From the NCBI RefSeq assembly GCF_029626025.1, contig NZ_JARUBF010000001.1, forward strand, positions 5,302,001 to 5,366,000: DNA of 64,000 nucleotides, written 5' to 3'. The DNA is from Solwaraspora sp. WMMD406. Lineage in GTDB: Bacteria; Actinomycetota; Actinomycetes; Mycobacteriales; Micromonosporaceae. This document shows positions 9,036-56,449 of this stretch, in pieces. Numbering within the stretch: the stretch's first letter is position 1; every line of letters begins with the position of its first letter. Under the pieces are notes generated by a model, which saw nothing but the letters and a program-made list of their open reading frames with translations, searched no databases and was not told the DNA's origin. A program made the translations under genes and the position numbers.

Positions 9036-9622
9036 ACCCACCGCGCCAGTTCGACCATCTTCGGGGCGAGTTCGACGGCGGACAGTTCGTCGTCACCGGG
9101 AGCGAACGTCCACCGGACGCCGATCTGCTTCCGATCTCCGGTGATCCAGTTGACCTCCAACGCCGCGCCGTAGCCGGTGTCCGGGTCCGGTTTGATCGGA
9201 ATCCAGTAGGCCGCCTTGCCCAGATCGTCGATCTCCTTCGCGCCCACCGGTGCGACGTCGTCGGCGAAGACCGACGCGCTGGCCCTGGTGTCCGAGATCG
9301 ACACCATCAGGTCGGGCAGCGTCTCCTCGGCCGGACGCAACAGGCAGGTCTTGGTTTTGTCGTGGCCGCTGGCCGCCGCGACCTCGAACCGGAAGTCCAG
9401 GATCTTCTCGATCACGTCGTAGTCGAGCAGCGCGCACACTCCGCCGGACTCGGCGGCGGGCGGGCGGGGCACCTCGGGGTAGGGCTCGACCGGGCTGGGC
9501 GACGCGCCGGGCGTCGACTCGCCGGCCGGGGCCGCGGTCTGGGTGGCGGCGGCCTGGCCGGAACAACCGGCGGCCAGAGACAACACCAGGCCGACGCCGA
9601 GCGCGCGCAGCCGTACGCCCAC
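9014..9622 (-). CDS. Secreted lipoprotein, DUF3558-like
   Basis: A 202-residue lipoprotein. The GTG at 9622 is preceded by GGAGGTCACT, a near-ideal ribosome site, and gives a short basic N-terminus, a hydrophobic stretch and the lipobox LAAGC. A Pro/Ser/Ala-rich linker follows, then a globular domain with CALLDYDVI and TKTCLLRP, two cysteines that may form a disulfide. This layout resembles actinobacterial DUF3558 lipoproteins, whose function is unknown. The upstream frame continues but has no better start. A perfect palindrome 50 bp upstream could be its operator. Confidence 0.8.
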   Translation of the reverse strand: MGVRLRALGVGLVLSLAAGCSGQAAATQTAAPAGESTPGASPSPVEPYPEVPRPPAAESGGVCALLDYDVIEKILDFRFEVAAASGHDKTKTCLLRPAEETLPDLMVSISDTRASASVFADDVAPVGAKEIDDLGKAAYWIPIKPDPDTGYGAALEVNWITGDRKQIGVRWTFAPGDDELSAVELAPKMVELARWVQAEREN

Positions 9623-9671
9623 AGTGACCTCCCACGGGTCAGACCGGTCGAAAAAGGGGATTGTTCGTGGC

Positions 9672-11921: not shown

Positions 11922-12080
11922 GTGTACGGATCGCCCAAAGGGCCTCCTACGGGGGGCGGCCTCGCGGTGACGGGGATCGCTATGGGCTCGTGGGTCCTGG
12001 CCGGCATCGGGCTGGTGGTCCTGGGAGTGAGCCTTCTGGTGCTGTTCCGGAAGAGTGACCGTGCAGCAACGACAACCTAG
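11922..12080 (+). CDS. 52-residue miniprotein with a sortase-type LAVTG/TM/basic tail
   Basis: The GTG at 11922 sits six bases after GGAGG (11911-11915), a strong ribosome site. The peptide has about 13 Gly/Pro-rich residues, then LAVTG, about 22 hydrophobic residues and a basic tail FRKSDR. This is the tripartite layout of a cell-wall sorting signal; LAxTG is the class E sortase motif used by streptomycete chaplins. Yet there is no N-terminal signal peptide and almost no cargo. The frame ends inside the next gene (20-bp overlap), so it is translationally coupled to the exosortase-like protein. It may be a substrate or small subunit of that enzyme. Existence is well supported; function is not known. 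Confidence 0.7.
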   Translation: MYGSPKGPPTGGGLAVTGIAMGSWVLAGIGLVVLGVSLLVLFRKSDRAATTT

Positions 12081-12600
12081 AGTCAGATTTGTCCAGATGG
12101 TCGCTGGATTGGCCCTGTTGGGGACGGTGGCCGCGGTGCTGGTGAATCTCGAACAGATCGCGGAGGCGGAGGCTCAGGCCAATGCCGTTCTGGTTGGTCT
12201 GGTCGGTCTCGCGGACGCCGAACACATCCAGCGCACCGTCGTCTTCTTCGTGGACAACAGGCTCGTCGGATTCGTGGTGACCGTCGGTTGTTCAGTCGGC
12301 CTGCTCCTCGTGCCGCCAATCAGCATTATCGCGGTCCTGCTCGTCGGCGGACGGCTCTCACTGCGACGCGCGCTCGCAGCCTGCATGTTGATCGGCTCGG
12401 CGCTCGTGCTCGTCAACCAGTTGCGGCTGTCAGCGGCGGTGGGATCGATGAAGCTCTGGGGCTTCGAGCGAGGTTACGAGATCAGCCATGTCTTCATCGG
12501 GTCGATGGTGACCTCTGTCGGCCTTGTTCTGGCGATCGCGATCTTCGCAAGCGTATTGACCAAGACTCGCATCCTGCGGACAGGTTCCAATGAGCGTTGA
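12061..12600 (+). CDS. Short exosortase/archaeosortase-like transmembrane protein
   Basis: A protein of about 179 residues with four to five membrane segments (about 10-30, 68-96, 104-122, 144-166). Candidate active-site residues of the exosortase/archaeosortase superfamily occur in order and at plausible spacing: Cys77 in VTVGCSVG, Arg122 in VNQLRL, and His143 in GYEISHVFIG, each next to a membrane segment. These enzymes cut and transfer C-terminal tripartite signals on exported proteins. The size suits short XrtG-like forms, which in Firmicutes also sit beside a GT2 gene. Start at GTG 12061 has better GGAAG spacing than the GTG at 12055. It overlaps the miniprotein upstream and the GT2 gene downstream by 11 bp. 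Confidence 0.72.
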   Translation: MQQRQPRVRFVQMVAGLALLGTVAAVLVNLEQIAEAEAQANAVLVGLVGLADAEHIQRTVVFFVDNRLVGFVVTVGCSVGLLLVPPISIIAVLLVGGRLSLRRALAACMLIGSALVLVNQLRLSAAVGSMKLWGFERGYEISHVFIGSMVTSVGLVLAIAIFASVLTKTRILRTGSNER

Positions 12601-13957
12601 CGCGACCGGCTTCGAACTGATAAACACGTTTGCGTTCATACTCTGTGTAACCTTCTGCGCGTACGTGCTGAGCATCATGATCGTCTACCTGCGCAGGAAA
12701 CCCGCGTCAGCCGGCGACCCAGACGAGTTCGACTGGCATCTCATCGTGCCCTGCCGCGACGAGGCAGCAGTGATCGGCGAAACGGTACGACATCTCGTCG
12801 ACACCTTCGACAGCGCCACGATCTGGTGTGTCGACGACGGATCGGTCGACGGGACCCGCGAGATTTTGGAGACCTTCAGCGGGCTGGACCGGGTTCGGAT
12901 CCTCTGCCGTACCCCACCCAAAGCACGGCAGGGCAAGGGTGCGGCGCTGAATGAGGCATGGGCCGCCATCCGGTCCGCTGCGCGGAACGATGCAGCGGCC
13001 GGAAAATTGATCGTGGGCGTCATCGACGCCGATAGCAGGCTCGACGTCGAGTGTTTCGCGAAGCTCGCCGGGTCACAGTACTTCGGCGATTCGACGGTCG
13101 GGGCGGTCCAGGTCGAGGTCCGCATGGTGCAGTGCGGTTCAACTCGTAGCGCCGCAGTAAGTCACAGCCGGTGGGGTCGGATGCTGATCCGGTTGCAGGA
13201 TCTGGAGTTCCGGGCACCGATCGCGGCCATGCAAGAACTGCGACGCCGCACCGGCAGTGTGGGGATGGGCGGGAACGGGCAGTTCACTCGATTGTCGGTG
13301 CTGAACGAGATCGCGGAGTCCTACGGGACCCCTTGGCACGGCGCACTTCTGGAGGATTTCGAGCTCGGACTGCACGTGCTGCTTGTCGGGTCCCGTACCG
13401 AATACTGCCCCGAGGCCTGGGTCGAGCAGGAGGCACTCGTCACGGCGCGCCATCTTCTCCGGCAGCGGTCCAGGTGGGCACAGGGGTCGATGCAATGCGC
13501 CCGGTACTTCCCAGCCATTATGCGCTCGCGCCATGTCAGGAACTCGGCGGCCGTCGAGATCACGTACTTCTTGGCCGCGCCGTGGTTCCAACTCGTAGGC
13601 ACCGTAACGTACACGGCATGTCTCGGGGTCCTTGTCTATTACATCAGGAACACGTCTGATGGAGCGGCGGGATGGTGGACGCGCGGCGGCTGGGGCGTCA
13701 TACCCCTTATAGTAATTTTCGGAATACTTCCGTTCGCGGTCTGGGGGATCGCCTACCGCGTCCGGTGCGCGCAGAGCATCAGCCGGTCCACGGCGATTGG
13801 GATCGGGTTCTGCCACTGGGTCTACAGCTACGTCCAGTGCGTGGCGGTGTGGATGGCCTTCGTGCGCCTGCTGCGCGCGAAGTCGGACTGGCAGAAGACC
13901 GCGCGAGTCGGCACGACAGTGCCACCAGCGAGGCTTCAATCCAGCGCACCGGGCTGA
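12590..13957 (+). CDS. Membrane GT2-family glycosyltransferase
   Basis: A 455-residue processive-type family 2 glycosyltransferase. One membrane segment lies at about 10-33; the cytoplasmic GT-A domain shows VDDGSVDGT, the metal-binding IDADS, an ED pair in EDFELGL, and QRSRW (the Q-x-x-R-W acceptor motif). Three or more membrane segments follow at about 330-440. Such proteins polymerise and export a polysaccharide or glycosylate a lipid or protein carrier at the membrane. Its ATG overlaps the exosortase-like gene's stop, so the two are translationally coupled. The donor sugar is unknown; the epimerase two genes downstream hints at ManNAc. Confidence 0.9.
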   Translation: MSVDATGFELINTFAFILCVTFCAYVLSIMIVYLRRKPASAGDPDEFDWHLIVPCRDEAAVIGETVRHLVDTFDSATIWCVDDGSVDGTREILETFSGLDRVRILCRTPPKARQGKGAALNEAWAAIRSAARNDAAAGKLIVGVIDADSRLDVECFAKLAGSQYFGDSTVGAVQVEVRMVQCGSTRSAAVSHSRWGRMLIRLQDLEFRAPIAAMQELRRRTGSVGMGGNGQFTRLSVLNEIAESYGTPWHGALLEDFELGLHVLLVGSRTEYCPEAWVEQEALVTARHLLRQRSRWAQGSMQCARYFPAIMRSRHVRNSAAVEITYFLAAPWFQLVGTVTYTACLGVLVYYIRNTSDGAAGWWTRGGWGVIPLIVIFGILPFAVWGIAYRVRCAQSISRSTAIGIGFCHWVYSYVQCVAVWMAFVRLLRAKSDWQKTARVGTTVPPARLQSSAPG

Positions 13958-14008
13958 AACAAGCAGCTTCCCCTCACTGTAAGGAAAAGAAAGCACAAGG
14001 AGAATGTA

Positions 14009-14875
14009 ATGGGAAAGTATGGACGTCGCAGGCTGCGGATCTTCGGATCGGCGGTGGCCTTCGGGCTCACCGCGGTCCTGTTGATCGCGACACCTGCTCA
14101 GGCAGACACGTCACAGGTGAGTGCCTCGGCCTTGCAGATCGGACTCGTCGGCGGCGGTGTCGCGAGTTCAGGCACCTTCACCGCCAGCAACACCGACGGC
14201 GGAAGTGAGGTGACCAGCGGAAACAACGCCCCGGCGCTCACGGTGCTGGGCTCGCAGAACGTCATCACCGCAGGCGTACTCGGCCAGTACGGCACGGCCG
14301 AGTACCTGGGCGTCTCCCACGGCTGCGCGGGCGTGCTCGGCGCGGGCGGAACCTTCCAGTTCGGTCCGGGCGGGGACTGCACGGTTACCCCCGGTGCCGA
14401 GGTCACCTTCACGCTCGGCACCAGCGGACTGGCATCCATCAACCTGAGGGCCGACGCGATCTACGCGACGTGCACCGCGACGAGTACCCCGACCGCCACG
14501 GGGGACGCCACCCTGACCAACGCCCGGATCACGTCCACCACGCTGGGCGTCGAGACCACCCTGCTGGACCTGTCGCTCGACACCTCGCCGAACACCGGGC
14601 TGACCGTTCCGGGGCTGTTGTCGATCGTGGTGAACAGCCAGACCAGTTCGGGGCCGGGACAAATCGATGTCGCGGCGCTGCGTATCGAAGCACTCAGCGG
14701 GACACTCGCGTCCCTGGTCATCGGCAACGTCATCTGCGGGCCCAACGCGATCGCGCCGCCCATTCCGGTGATCCCGGTCGCCGGCGCACCACTGGCCGCA
14801 GGCGTACTCGCCGCCGCCGGACTGGGCTGGTACCTCGTCCGTCGACGCCGCAACGCCGCCGCCCAGGCCGCCTGA
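14009..14875 (+). CDS. Secreted protein with C-terminal anchor (choice-of-anchor-like)
   Basis: A 288-residue exported protein. AAGGAG precedes the ATG by six bases. A signal peptide (basic MGKYGRRRLR, hydrophobic core, TPAQA-D cleavage) leads into a Thr/Ser/Gly-rich beta-type domain with three cysteines (near residues 110, 130 and 152) and a fourth in VICGPN near residue 248. The end is tripartite: IPVIPVAGAP, a hydrophobic segment of about 20 residues and RRRR. That is a plausible substrate of the exosortase-like protein encoded two genes upstream, comparable to actinobacterial choice-of-anchor families. A 51-bp gap follows the GT2 gene; its stop overlaps the epimerase start (TGATG). Confidence 0.78.
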   Translation: MGKYGRRRLRIFGSAVAFGLTAVLLIATPAQADTSQVSASALQIGLVGGGVASSGTFTASNTDGGSEVTSGNNAPALTVLGSQNVITAGVLGQYGTAEYLGVSHGCAGVLGAGGTFQFGPGGDCTVTPGAEVTFTLGTSGLASINLRADAIYATCTATSTPTATGDATLTNARITSTTLGVETTLLDLSLDTSPNTGLTVPGLLSIVVNSQTSSGPGQIDVAALRIEALSGTLASLVIGNVICGPNAIAPPIPVIPVAGAPLAAGVLAAAGLGWYLVRRRRNAAAQAA

Positions 14876-16065
14876 TGCACACTGCGGACCAGCCAGCACC
14901 AGTGACCGTTCTCGTCGGCACCCGCCCGGAGGCGATCAAGTGCGCACCGCTGGTCAGGGCGCTGACGGGCGACCCCCGACTCACCTGCGAGGTCGTCGGT
15001 ACAGGTCAACACCGGGCACCGGTGGTCGAAGCCCTCGTACCGTTCGGCGTGCAACCGAGCCGGTTGTTCGAGCTGGAGCGGAGCAGTGGCTCGCTACCGG
15101 AGCTGGCCGCAGCGTTGACCACGGCCGCCGACCGGGAACTGAGGCGCTCCCGGCCGGCAGCCGTGGTCGTACACGGCGATACGCTCACCGCGTTGATCGG
15201 CGGCCTGGTCGCGTTCTGGAACGGGATCCCCGTCGTCCACCTGGAGGCGGGGTTGAGAACGCAGGACATCCATCAGCCCTTTCCGGAGGAAGTCAACCGA
15301 TCAGTGATCTCCCGGTTCGCGTCGCTGCACCTCGCTCCGACCCGGACCGCGGCGCTCAACCTCCTCAACGAGAAGGTGCCGGCACAGCGAATCGTGATCA
15401 CCGGGAACACGGTCGTAGACTCACTTCGGTACCTGATCGAATCGGGGAAGGCTGTTCCTCCCGCCTGGGTGGCCGACGTTTCGCATCGGCGACTCGTCGT
15501 CATGACCCTGCACCGTCGGGAGAACTGGGGTGACGGCGTGCGCCGGATCTGCGGAGCGGTCCGCCAGATCGTCGAACGGGACAGCGACACGGAGGTAGCA
15601 GTCGTCACGCATCCGAATCCGGAGGTCCGGTCGACGCTGACCGGGATGCTGTCCGGTGTTCGACGGGTCCGGCTCGTCGATCCGTTGTCCTACCCGTCCA
15701 TGGTCGGTCTGCTCGCGCGGGCCGATCTGGTGATCACGGACTCGGGCGGGATCCAGGAGGAAGCGGCGACCCTCGGGCTGCGGATGCTCGTCACGAGAGA
15801 TGTGACCGAGCGGGCGGAGGTTCTGCACGACGGGCTCGGCGAGTTGGTCGGCACCGACCCGCAGCTGATCGTGGCGCGGGCGCTTCACGCCCTGGCCCAA
15901 CCGAACCGGGTGCCGCTGGACCGAGCGCCGGCCCACCCTGCGTTGGGTGATGGTCGGGCGGCGGCGCGGGCGGCCGAGGCGATCGGCCACCTGTTGTTCC
16001 CAGACACCGGCAAACGGCTGGTCAACCACGAGCCGATGTCGACATCGATGGCGATGTCGACCTGA
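14875..16065 (+). CDS. wecB: UDP-N-acetylglucosamine 2-epimerase (non-hydrolysing)
   Basis: A 396-residue cytoplasmic enzyme interconverting UDP-GlcNAc and UDP-ManNAc. Hallmarks are VGTRPEAIKCAPL at the N-terminus, VHGDTLTA, HLEAGLRT, the EEVNR segment, LHRRENWG and DSGGIQEEA near residue 290. The start ATG shares its A with the TGA of the anchor-protein gene, so translation is coupled. UDP-ManNAc is a surface-polysaccharide precursor, making this the likely sugar supply for the GT2 enzyme. The C-terminal 15 residues are Met/Ser-rich and unconserved. A long hairpin follows 30 bp downstream. Confidence 0.93.
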   Translation: MHTADQPAPVTVLVGTRPEAIKCAPLVRALTGDPRLTCEVVGTGQHRAPVVEALVPFGVQPSRLFELERSSGSLPELAAALTTAADRELRRSRPAAVVVHGDTLTALIGGLVAFWNGIPVVHLEAGLRTQDIHQPFPEEVNRSVISRFASLHLAPTRTAALNLLNEKVPAQRIVITGNTVVDSLRYLIESGKAVPPAWVADVSHRRLVVMTLHRRENWGDGVRRICGAVRQIVERDSDTEVAVVTHPNPEVRSTLTGMLSGVRRVRLVDPLSYPSMVGLLARADLVITDSGGIQEEAATLGLRMLVTRDVTERAEVLHDGLGELVGTDPQLIVARALHALAQPNRVPLDRAPAHPALGDGRAAARAAEAIGHLLFPDTGKRLVNHEPMSTSMAMST

Positions 16066-16095: not shown

Positions 16096-16137
16096 GATCT
16101 TCTCCGGCAGCCGTGGTGGCGGCTGCCGGAGAAGATC
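16096..16137 (+). terminator. Perfect 17-bp hairpin after the epimerase gene
   Basis: Two 17-bp arms (16096-16112 and 16121-16137) pair without mismatch around an 8-base loop, 30 bp after the wecB stop. No T-run follows. It probably ends the transcript that begins at 11922 and leaves the acyltransferase under separate or read-through control. Confidence 0.8.
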
Positions 16138-16268: not shown

Positions 16269-17648
16269 ATGGTGACGGACATCATGTCAGCTCCCAGAAC
16301 CTTCGACATCCGCAGATTCCCGCGCCTGGCGGACCGCTTCGACGTCGAACGGAACTCGTTCGGACTGATCCGGCTGGTCTTCGCGCTCGGCGTCCTGCTG
16401 GCACACGCCCGGCCACTCGGCTACGCGCTCGCGCCCCTCGGCGCAAGGATCTCCGCCAACCAGAGCGACCTCGGCACGTTGGCTGTGCAGGGGTTCTTCG
16501 TCCTCTCTGGTTTCCTCGTCGCCGGCAGCGCGCTCAGGCACTCCCTGCCACGCTATCTGTGGCACCGCACGCTGCGCATTTTCCCGGCGTTCTGGACCTG
16601 CCTGTTGGTGACCGCCCTGATCATGGCGCCGCTCGTCGCGCTTGCTGAGGGTCGGCCACTACGCGAGTTCTGGACCCATCACGAGGGCCCGATCAGCTAC
16701 CTGGCCACAAACTGGTTTACATCGATGAACCAGTTCACGATCTCCGGTCTGCTCTCCCAAACCCCTTACGGGCAGGCCATGGGAGGACCGAGCGCCTTTG
16801 ACGGTTCGCTGTGGACACTCCGCTACGAACTGGCCTGCTATCTCCTGGTCGGGGTCCTCGCCGCCACCGCCGTGCTGCGCCAGGCACCCCGCGCGCTCAT
16901 CGCGCTGCTGGCCGGCACTTACATACTGATACTGCGCGACTTCGCCGCCGCGCCCGGCTGGGCCGTCCGGCCGGCTGGCGTGGACCAGATCGGCCCCTTC
17001 CCGCTGATCGGCTCCTTCGCCCCCACCTGGCTGCTCTACTTCAGCTTCCTGTTCCTCCTCGGCGCGACGGCCCGCGTCTACATGCACCGCATACCGATGG
17101 ACGGCAAAATGGCGGCCGTTGCCGCCGCCATCATGACGGCCAGTCTGGTCGTCGGAGGGTTCGCCGTAGTTGGCCTACCCTGCCTTGCATACCTTGTCAT
17201 CTTTGCAGGTGTCGCGCTTCCTGAGCGTTTCACTCGGATCGGCCGCAAGCGCGACTACTCGTACGGAATCTACGTCTACGGATTTCCCGTCCAGCAGATC
17301 GTCGCGCTGTTCGGCGGTGCGCAACTCGGCCTGACAGGCTACATCGCACTGTCCCTGGCCGGCACCCTGGCTCTCGCCGCCGCCTCCTGGCACCTCATCG
17401 AAGAACCCGCCATGACACTACGCAACGCCACACCCAGCCAATTCCCGACCCCATTCCGCCGCCTCTCACGCATCCTCCACACGCCCGCCTCCCTCCTCGC
17501 CGCACCGCGGCATTCACCATCGGACAAAGCGGCAGAAGACCCCGCTTCCACACCAATCCCGATGCGCACCTCGGACGAGGAACACAAACCCCAACAACGA
17601 CCACAACCCAAACATGCAAATGAAACCCGAATCTTGGAAGACGTCTGA
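16269..17648 (+). CDS. Acyltransferase family 3 (OafA-like) membrane protein
   Basis: A protein of about 459 residues with around ten membrane segments. NSFGLIRLVFALGVLLAHA at the N-terminus contains the family His, and FFVLSGFLVAGS and the RTLRIFPAFW segment follow. These proteins transfer acetyl or other acyl groups from the cytoplasm to sugars outside. The location suggests acylation of the locus' polysaccharide. The last 80 residues are hydrophilic and Pro/Thr-rich. Starts at 16269 (MVTDIM) and 16284 (MSAPR) are both possible; neither has a strong ribosome site. The hairpin upstream separates it from the epimerase. Confidence 0.85.
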   Translation: MVTDIMSAPRTFDIRRFPRLADRFDVERNSFGLIRLVFALGVLLAHARPLGYALAPLGARISANQSDLGTLAVQGFFVLSGFLVAGSALRHSLPRYLWHRTLRIFPAFWTCLLVTALIMAPLVALAEGRPLREFWTHHEGPISYLATNWFTSMNQFTISGLLSQTPYGQAMGGPSAFDGSLWTLRYELACYLLVGVLAATAVLRQAPRALIALLAGTYILILRDFAAAPGWAVRPAGVDQIGPFPLIGSFAPTWLLYFSFLFLLGATARVYMHRIPMDGKMAAVAAAIMTASLVVGGFAVVGLPCLAYLVIFAGVALPERFTRIGRKRDYSYGIYVYGFPVQQIVALFGGAQLGLTGYIALSLAGTLALAAASWHLIEEPAMTLRNATPSQFPTPFRRLSRILHTPASLLAAPRHSPSDKAAEDPASTPIPMRTSDEEHKPQQRPQPKHANETRILEDV

Positions 17649-18784: not shown

Positions 18785-19102
18785 TCTGGGGGGCGGCGAC
18801 TCCGGCGCGCCCCGGGGCGCCGAGCGTGCCCGGAGGTCAGGTCCGGGCTCTGATGCCGTTCTCTGGTCATCGCTACCCGCCGGGTAGCACGCGCGCAGGA
18901 AAGGGCCATTGCGGCGGCTGAGGCTGGCTGGGACGGCTGGTGCGGCTAGCAGCCAGGGAGGCGGAACGCCACCAGCGGTTTGCGATTCACTCGAAGGTCG
19001 ATTCTTCTGTTGTTCCAGTTATCTGGTGTTCTGCGAGGTGCTCCCATCTTCCCAGGTCCGGGATCCGGACCGCCGTCACCACTCGGGAAGAAGAGGTATG
19101 AC
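18785..19102. other. Intergenic stretch before the DUF4394 gene
   Basis: No gene is visible. It contains an operator-like palindrome GCTACCCG-C-CGGGTAGC (18872-18888) about 215 bp upstream of the DUF4394 start, and a somewhat AT-richer part (GATTCTTCTGTTGTTCC) near 19005 where a promoter could lie. Confidence 0.4.
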
Positions 19103-20089
19103 ATGGCAAACAAGTTGCTCAACCGTGGCCTGATGCTCGCGGGCCTCGCGGGCCTGGTCGGCGTGGCCGTGACCGTCAGTACCACGCTCATGGCCACGCC
19201 GGCTTCCTCCGACAGCGGAGTGGAGCCGCAGGTGGAGTCGGCGACCGCACCTGACCGGTCCGGTTGCGCGGTGCAGCGGGGCGGGGCGGGCGGGGGTGCC
19301 AAGGACAGCGGTGGCAGGGACCACCACGGCCGGGGCAGGCTCATCTCGGTCGGGCTCACCGTCGACCAGAAGCTGGTCATCTTCGATGTCGATGCACCGG
19401 GAAAGGCATGGGACATCGGCACGGTCAGCGACGATCTGGAGGGTGACACCTATCTGCTCGGTATCGACTACCGCGTACAGAACGGCGAACTGTACGGGGT
19501 CGGCAACGTCGGCGGCATCTATCTGCTCGATCTGTGCAACATCGCTGCGGAGAAGGTGAGTCAGCTGACCGTCACCCTGCAGGGCAAGTACTTCGGTGTC
19601 GACTTCAACCCTGCCGCCGACCGGCTGCGGATCATCAGCGACGCGGGCCAGAACCTGCGCCACGACGTCAACCCGGACGGTGCCACCATTGAGGACGGCA
19701 CCCTGACCTACCCGCCGGCGCCGGAAACCGCTACCGGACTGTCCGGTGCTGCTTACACCAACAACGATCTCGACCCCGCCACCGCCACGACCTTGTTCGA
19801 CCTCGACACCAACCTCAACCAGGTCGCGCTCCAGTCACCAGCCAACTCCGGCCAACTCGCCGCCACCGGCCAACTCGGCGTCGAACCTCACCCCAACGCC
19901 GGCTTCGACATCTACAGCACGGTGCGCGACGGCCGCACGGTCGCCGTGCAGGGCTTCGCCGCCCTAGACGCCAACGGCCACAGGAGCCTATACAAGATCA
20001 ACATCCTGACCGGCGCGGCAGACAAGGCCGGGAACTTCCCGAAGAAGTACAACGTCACCGACCTGGCCCTGCCCCTGAACCAGCTCTGA
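19103..20089 (+). CDS. Exported DUF4394 domain protein
   Basis: A 328-residue secreted protein. AAGAGG lies about 6 bp before the ATG (MANKLLNRG); longer in-frame starts lack a ribosome site. A signal peptide with cleavage near ATPASS-D leads to a hydrophilic Gly/His-rich stretch and then a DUF4394 domain of about 230 residues: repeating short beta-propeller-like elements such as ELYGVGNVGGIYLLD, FGVDFNPAADRLRIISD and SLYKINILTG. The domain resembles a six-blade propeller of unknown ligand. A perfect hairpin 25 bp after the stop ends the unit, so it is probably monocistronic. Confidence 0.88.
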   Translation: MANKLLNRGLMLAGLAGLVGVAVTVSTTLMATPASSDSGVEPQVESATAPDRSGCAVQRGGAGGGAKDSGGRDHHGRGRLISVGLTVDQKLVIFDVDAPGKAWDIGTVSDDLEGDTYLLGIDYRVQNGELYGVGNVGGIYLLDLCNIAAEKVSQLTVTLQGKYFGVDFNPAADRLRIISDAGQNLRHDVNPDGATIEDGTLTYPPAPETATGLSGAAYTNNDLDPATATTLFDLDTNLNQVALQSPANSGQLAATGQLGVEPHPNAGFDIYSTVRDGRTVAVQGFAALDANGHRSLYKINILTGAADKAGNFPKKYNVTDLALPLNQL

Positions 20090-56108: not shown

Positions 56109-56449
56109 TGGCATGTGAGCTTGCGAGCCCCGCAGCCGCGAACGAAGAGGTGACACCCGTGAGCGCGAGGAGTGAGCTTGCGAGCCCCGCAGCCGCGAAC
56201 GAAGAGGTGACACCCGTGAGCGCGAGGAGTGAGCTTGCGAGCCCCGCAGCCGCGAACGAAGAGGTGACACCCGTGAGCGCGAGGAGTGAGCTTGCGAGCC
56301 CCGCAGCCGCGAACGAAGAGGTGACACCCGTGAGCGCGAGGAGTGAGCTTGCGAGCCCCGCAGCCGCGAACGAAGAGGTGACACCCGTGAGCGCGAGGAG
56401 TGAGCTTGCGAGCCCCGCAGCCGCGAACGAAGAGGTAGTCGACCAATGA
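56105..56449 (+). repeat. 57-bp tandem repeat array (five copies plus 38 bp) between gluC and gluD
   Basis: Copies start at 56116, 56173, 56230, 56287, 56344 and 56401 (partial to 56438) and are essentially identical. As 57 is divisible by three, a frame from 56105/56108 to 56449 stays open: 113 residues dominated by a 19-residue unit (ASPAAANEEVTPVSARSEL). Its start overlaps the gluC stop and its stop overlaps the gluD ATG (ATGA). Each copy also carries AAGAGGTGA ahead of a GTG, and the last copy supplies the gluD ribosome site. Whether the peptide is made is unknown. Confidence 0.9.

Follow-up and report, generated by a model that had tools for sequence, protein, structure and literature searches.

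Why should a gene for a protein of only 52 residues stand at the head of a compact operon that also encodes an exosortase-like membrane enzyme, a processive family 2 glycosyltransferase (GT2), an anchored protein and a sugar epimerase? The question is raised by a locus of the actinomycete Solwaraspora sp. WMMD406, found in a 64,000-nucleotide stretch of contig NZ_JARUBF010000001.1 (the window, to which all coordinates below refer). Comparison with related genomes indicates that the locus is a conserved, surface-building cassette of soil bacteria, probably for an envelope glycan, and that the occurrence of the miniprotein, judged by its sequence a sortase signal with almost no cargo, goes with the GT2 and not with the exosortase. 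This miniprotein family hints at an unrecognised route by which a sugar coat could be attached to the cell wall. A previous interpretation based on the letters of the window (the sequence-only reading) had picked up neither the sortase signal of the miniprotein nor its linkage to the GT2 rather than to the exosortase. It had described five genes in one direction, and this arrangement holds, with overlaps of 20 (or 26 from the GTG at 12055), 11 and 1 bp and one gap of 51 bp. The features of the locus are as follows.

11922..12080, + strand: miniprotein, 52 residues (GTG start, GGAGG upstream)
12061..12600 (or GTG start 12055), + strand: short exosortase-like membrane enzyme (profile matches, triad alignment, AlphaFold2 model)
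12590..13957, + strand: processive-type GT2 polysaccharide synthase (NF053846; PF13641, 5.8e-20; DD, DAD, ED and QRSRW motifs)
14009..14875, + strand: secreted choice-of-anchor P family protein (NF040603; 16-locus alignment)
14875..16065, + strand: non-hydrolysing UDP-GlcNAc 2-epimerase, WecB type (TIGR00236, 313.6 bits, cut-off 210; PF02350)
16096-16113/16120-16137, no strand: perfect hairpin, 18 + 18 nt with a 6-nt loop (100% complementary; 30 bp past the epimerase stop)
16284..17648, + strand: OafA-like membrane acyltransferase (PF01757, 2.7e-18)

The miniprotein consists of a Met-Tyr start, a short Gly/Pro-rich tail, the motif LAVTG, one transmembrane helix and an Arg/Lys tail, and its N terminus is predicted to lie outside the cell. 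This is the layout of a sortase substrate (L[AP]xTG, hydrophobic helix, C-terminal basic tail). The general sortase-signal model TIGR01167 gave it 13.4 bits, under the cut-off of 15.9 that four of ten relatives exceeded. The LAXTG small-protein model NF058583 covered it over positions 1-52 of 54 at 28.6 bits (cut-off 65); this model was passed by an Actinokineospora miniprotein with 84.3 bits, the other nine of the ten relatives being under the cut-off or unlisted. A scan of 396 genomes with NF058583 put none over the cut-off, and only the window and G417 among the 30 resulting loci carried miniproteins. Plain membership of NF058583 was therefore rejected because of the score under the cut-off, and the miniprotein is best regarded as a distant relative of that family, the name of which is silent on the GT2 and on LPxTG forms. 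A set of 11 Micromonosporaceae miniproteins shows no variation in M1, Y2, a GG pair, L-A-x-T-G and some stretches of the helix. Across the miniproteins in general, the basic tail and the T and G of the motif are retained, its L is almost always so, and the X position varies; Herbidospora and its relatives have LPFTG instead of LAxTG. Only 12-45 residues precede the motif in the cassette miniproteins.

A pattern search that made no demand on Tyr covered 80 named GT2 loci, which were the best of 168, and found miniproteins in 40. With that of the window they make 41, chosen by eye from the pattern matches, from which 12 others were dropped (anchor proteins, long frames and helix-less short frames; the window contains two of these 12). 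All 41 offer a Met-Tyr start, usually behind a purine-rich stretch and in nine cases with a further start codon upstream of it, against a background of Tyr2 in 8 of 1086 called genes. The miniproteins of L101 and L118, which came from a search demanding Tyr2, stand outside the 41. A second form, MSxx[KR]V...LPVTG, was seen directly upstream of the GT2 in L151-L157 and L204-L207; most of these loci have an epimerase and a DUF2334 protein downstream (L157 ends at a contig end), with DUF2334 confirmed by Pfam in two.

The linkage with the GT2 was followed by searching 300 genomes of the family with a profile of 24 miniproteins, and the counts given here for it are among the matches listed. Under a first criterion, an open frame of at most 126 residues (a limit chosen after the matches had been viewed), 33 of 33 miniproteins adjoin a processive GT2: 11 in exosortase cassettes, where the exosortase gene lies in between, one in Phytohabitans, 11 in GT2-epimerase-DUF2334 loci and ten next to a PgaC-like GT2 of a different kind, of which the four examples tested with NF053846 reached only 18-30 bits. 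A second criterion, added late and independent of the GT2, asks that the profile match begin at model position 1-2; here 28 of 28 adjoin a GT2, six of them in longer frames (L169, L203, L208-L211). Pooling of both criteria gives 39 of 39 (28 plus 11 'MS' miniproteins). All 16 miniproteins of the PgaC-like group start with Met-Tyr and all 11 of the DUF2334 group with Met-Ser, a hydroxyl-bearing second residue in either case. In the Micromonosporaceae loci devoid of an exosortase, 6-46 bp separate the miniprotein from the GT2 match; L150, with 60-90 bp, is the exception.

Control loci behaved differently. A GT2 was found in 0 of 16 other sorting-signal loci of the same family (about 3.4 kb each, one 2.2 kb), which comprised longer-frame matches starting after position 2, three with the next longer frames and thirteen long. 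In samples of the phylum it was found within about 1.5 kb in 0 of 53 distinct places (56 loci, three fetched twice), whereas the four miniprotein-bearing loci among the 60 of these samples (the window and G417, each twice) all had one. Some of the named and control loci end at contig ends. An exosortase, taken as absent when there is no match to the exosortase alignment profile at E <= 1e-3 within the stretch examined, was matched in none of L150-L169 and L200-L207, and 22 of the 33 short-frame Micromonosporaceae miniproteins have none in the fetched stretch. The idea that the miniprotein is an exosortase-specific partner was rejected on this count. Exosortase and anchor protein resemble an extra module that has joined a pair of miniprotein and GT2.

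A direct link with sortases is seen in Amycolatopsis, where four loci (L108, L111, L114 and L119) have the order GT2, miniprotein (LAVTG), epimerase and class E sortase. These sortases score 178-193 bits with NF033747 (cut-off 160); in L108 and L111, by gene calls made here, the sortase gene overlaps the end of the epimerase gene by 4 bp. No exosortase was detected in the four loci. According to the available portion of a report on the Streptomyces coelicolor SrtE1 system, LAXTG is the motif recognised by class E sortases (PMC5148588), so that motif and sortase class are both shared between that system and the Amycolatopsis cassette. The SrtE1 substrates named in the same portion are chaplins, proteins with cargo (PMC5148588), unlike miniproteins of the window type with their short stretch ahead of the motif. 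Elsewhere, a profile search placed one sortase about 4 kb from the miniprotein in L203. Right after the class E sortase, the four Amycolatopsis loci encode a conserved single-transmembrane protein of 51 residues (about 9470-9657), with no match in Pfam (one tested) or NCBIfam (two tested).

The cassette as a whole is sporadic, with an exosortase match in 18 of the 300 family genomes. The order miniprotein-exosortase-GT2-anchor-epimerase recurs in the ten closest relative loci fetched (L020-L029, with the GT2 of L029 split across two frames), so the five-gene association is far more than chance. A strong OafA-like homologue is present in seven of these ten, in four of them on the same strand right after the epimerase. 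Five more distant loci (L030-L034) have the exosortase, the GT2 and the anchor protein, and no miniprotein was found in them. Among the 80 named GT2 loci, 47 have an exosortase and 42 a miniprotein: 35 have both, seven the miniprotein only, 12 the exosortase only and 26 neither. Another order occurs in L035 (5376-8609): epimerase, LPVTG miniprotein, an exosortase that passes TIGR04178, and GT2, followed by proteins of 777 and 228 residues that match no family, the latter with a hydrophobic-RRR tail. GT2s of about 610-630 residues, with no miniprotein or exosortase detected, were seen in Brevibacterium (L117), Kocuria (L128), Brachybacterium (L124), Nesterenkonia (L137) and Aestuariimicrobium (L135); in all of these except L128 a multi-pass protein of 558-670 residues lies ahead of the GT2.

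How might these parts work together? The reading that we favour, tentatively and as something a little short of probable, is that GT2 and WecB make an N-acetylhexosamine (HexNAc) polymer, that a sortase-linked miniprotein tethers or primes it, and that exosortase and anchor protein are optional. WecB would produce the uridine diphosphate (UDP) derivative of N-acetylmannosamine (ManNAc), and the processive GT2 would polymerise a HexNAc-type polymer across the membrane, probably with ManNAc; the families of both enzymes are clear, and the products are deduced from them. The Met-Tyr start and Gly-rich tail of the miniprotein would face outward, and a class E sortase, its gene at another place in the source genome, could cut between Thr and Gly of LAVTG and join the resulting peptide of about 17 residues, MYGSPKGPPTGGGLAVT, to the wall. 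There the peptide might anchor or prime the polymer, leaving the polysaccharide made by the synthase bound to the wall. The exosortase, where present, would cleave the choice-of-anchor protein at its tail and transfer it to an acceptor, probably that polysaccharide or a lipid, and the OafA-like enzyme may O-acylate the product. The DUF2334 proteins, which we take to be deacetylase-like, and one PF01522 deacetylase found near miniprotein-linked GT2s fit an amino-sugar polymer. A more specific version, in which the miniprotein is both primer and tether, the sugar chain from the GT2 growing on Tyr2 (Ser2 in one subgroup) or being transferred to it before sortase ligation of the peptide to peptidoglycan, seems improbable to us as stated.

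Several observations weigh against the favoured reading. The GT2 is often without a miniprotein: 26 of the 80 named loci have neither miniprotein nor exosortase, L165-L168 carry GT2 and epimerase and no miniprotein, and none was detected in 12 of the 47 exosortase loci. A requirement for the miniprotein with every GT2 was accordingly rejected. All 12 genomes tested contain a sortase domain, including one that lacks a miniprotein, so the presence of such a domain does not discriminate. The DUF2334-type miniproteins have Ser2 throughout (11 of 11), which leaves no general Tyr-specific role and led to rejection of a Tyr-only mechanism. Frame length alone fails outside the family, where seven phylum matches have at most 126 residues and a GT2 stands only beside the two that are miniproteins; the second criterion, a match from position 1-2, holds in the phylum samples too. 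Finally, the exosortase of the window is below every curated cut-off.

The alternative that survives best, although we consider it rather unlikely, makes the miniprotein part of the synthase structure, as a subunit whose sortase motif only fixes it in place or is rarely used. Small transmembrane subunits assist poly-N-acetylglucosamine and cellulose synthases, and the single transmembrane helix of the miniprotein, its many Gly residues and its association with unlike GT2 subfamilies would all suit such a role; the short distance to the GT2 in exosortase-free loci is likewise consistent with stoichiometric co-expression. However, the pattern of conservation, with T, G, mostly L and the basic tail kept while X varies, is what a sortase substrate needs, a class E sortase lies within the Amycolatopsis operon, and the gene order differs between lineages. 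It is less probable still that this is an ordinary XrtP-like protein-sorting locus, in which the miniprotein, simply co-inherited, would serve as a very small sortase substrate or as a peptide signal and have nothing to do with the glycan. The sporadic distribution and the fact that NCBIfam lists the parts singly are in line with this, yet the adjacency to GT2s of several groups (28 of 28, and 11 of 11 'MS' miniproteins, versus none in the two sets of controls) speaks against it, and co-inheritance alone would not bring like miniproteins to unlike GT2s.

More doubtful again is a role of the miniprotein as exosortase acceptor, by which the cut C terminus of the anchor protein would be joined to the N-terminal amine of the miniprotein, and the miniprotein, once fixed by a sortase, would bridge protein and wall. 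Its presence in 35 of 47 exosortase loci and the availability of the Met-Tyr start in every one of the 41 would agree with that, whereas seven of 42 miniprotein-bearing named loci lack a detected exosortase, as do the 22 short-frame Micromonosporaceae cases noted above. It is hardly credible that the short gene next to the GT2 is just a chance reading frame, as its shortness and high GC content might suggest, given that start and protein are conserved over many genera and one member passes a curated model.

The favoured reading of a tethered polymer treats the second gene as an optional exosortase. The sequence-only reading had proposed an exosortase-type enzyme, and this proposal gained support: the protein matches the NCBIfam models XrtS (54.7 bits, 1.1e-14), XrtR (53.2, 3.5e-14) and XrtP (47.5, 1.8e-12), all under cut-offs of 145-200 bits, and its neighbours are a GT2 and a protein with a C-terminal tag. 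With TIGR04178 it scored 17.9, under the cut-off of 23. Loss of conservation of the Cys/Arg/His triad had been named as a result that would speak against the proposal; C79, R124 and H145 (counted from 12055; C77, R122 and H143 from 12061) are invariant in 16 of 16 aligned homologues. In an AlphaFold2 model (mean predicted local distance difference test score 86.5) the Cys lies just ahead of one helix, and the two long helices that follow carry the Arg and the His; a fold search of the PDB with this model gave no match at E <= 0.001, and no solved exosortase structure is known to us. Because relatives in similar cassettes pass TIGR04178 (32.7 and 42.0 bits) or PF09721 (27.9; cut-off 25.7), the exosortase kinship of the group appears sound. 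The gene is the sole match in the 7.16-Mb source genome (profile, E <= 1). In Firmicutes, XrtG is paired with a TIGR03111 GT2, and the kinship with XrtG that had been suggested shares with the window the idea of an exosortase beside a GT2; it was rejected, since no window protein matched TIGR03110 or TIGR03111 at E <= 1.

The presumed substrate of the exosortase is the anchor protein, which has an N-terminal signal-like helix and ends in APPIPVIPVAGAP, a hydrophobic stretch and RRRR. The Pro/hydrophobic/RRRR tail had been noticed earlier; its pattern, APPIPVIP-x-AGAP, hydrophobic, RRRR, proved to be conserved in close relatives and looser in five distant ones in the 16-locus alignment, and the protein scored 39.2 bits with the choice-of-anchor P model NF040603 (cut-off 27). 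Its structural model is beta-rich, with no match in the PDB at E <= 0.001. The GT2 fell just under the cut-off of the 'XrtP-associated glycosyltransferase' model NF053846 (514.7 versus 520 bits, residues 10-439 of 455), which the GT2 of one cassette relative passed with 669.5 bits. It carries the DxD and Q(R)xRW motifs of processive synthases, and all 17 synthases checked have both QRxRW and DxD. From its family, the WecB-type epimerase would be expected to supply UDP-ManNAc.

Among known systems, the XrtP, XrtR and XrtS sets (NF012139, NF012138 and NF033767, with NF053846) likewise place a short exosortase next to a choice-of-anchor protein and a GT2 of the same family; the miniprotein, WecB and the OafA-like gene are outside those models, of which the window exosortase falls far short and the window GT2 by 5 bits. 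Processive GT2s of the PgaC/IcaA, NodC and cellulose type share QxxRW and DxD with that of the window, for which the PgaC match was 5.3e-15, far below cut-off. Synthases of the PgaC/IcaA type have PgaD/IcaD as partner, unlike the window GT2 with its sortase-tagged miniprotein. The sequence-only reading knew of no described actinobacterial system with the full set. For the open-licence literature this stands, as no work on these actinobacterial systems or their combination was recognised among the matches listed; for databases it needs amendment, since NCBIfam already holds the parts singly (XrtP/R/S, XrtP-associated GT2, choice-of-anchor P, LAXTG small protein). No open-licence paper contained both 'exosortase' and 'choice-of-anchor', and for XrtP, among the matches listed for XrtP or exosortase since 2018, only an unrelated engineering paper appeared. 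The available portion of a paper on Actinoplanes SrtE (PMC13251363) has no occurrence of exosortase, glycosyltransferase or polysaccharide. A scan of viral contigs gave no lead. A partnership between processive GT2 synthases and a miniprotein that is little more than a sortase signal appears to be undescribed.

To the best of our knowledge, how polysaccharides made by a single GT2 are retained on Gram-positive walls is largely open. A nearly cargo-free sortase substrate beside GT2 synthases across lineages offers a gene-sized handle on this problem. If the more specific primer-and-tether version is true, sortases would anchor polysaccharides and not proteins alone, and the exosortase would add a protein to the same polymer. 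Such a sortase substrate could also account for a class of tiny LAXTG/LPXTG proteins and for the co-location of exosortase, GT2 and epimerase.

As regards the genomic setting, GC content is 62-63% at 12-14 kb versus about 70% at 9-11 kb of the window, and no exosortase match was found in six other genomes of the genus within the 300-genome family scan; the cassette may therefore have been acquired. A perfect hairpin after the epimerase had been noticed earlier, and the perfect stem was confirmed, with a length of 18 rather than 17 bp; it was absent from the output of a terminator scan. It need not end the transcription unit, because the OafA-like gene comes next on the same strand. The longest OafA-like frame begins at 16113, and as homology starts at about residues 39-70 of it, ATG 16284 is the likely start. 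About 1.3 kb past this gene lies a DUF4394 protein (PF14339, 3.9e-70) at 18980-20089, and a perfect 57-bp tandem repeat of 5.6 copies (100% matches) occupies 56115-56436.

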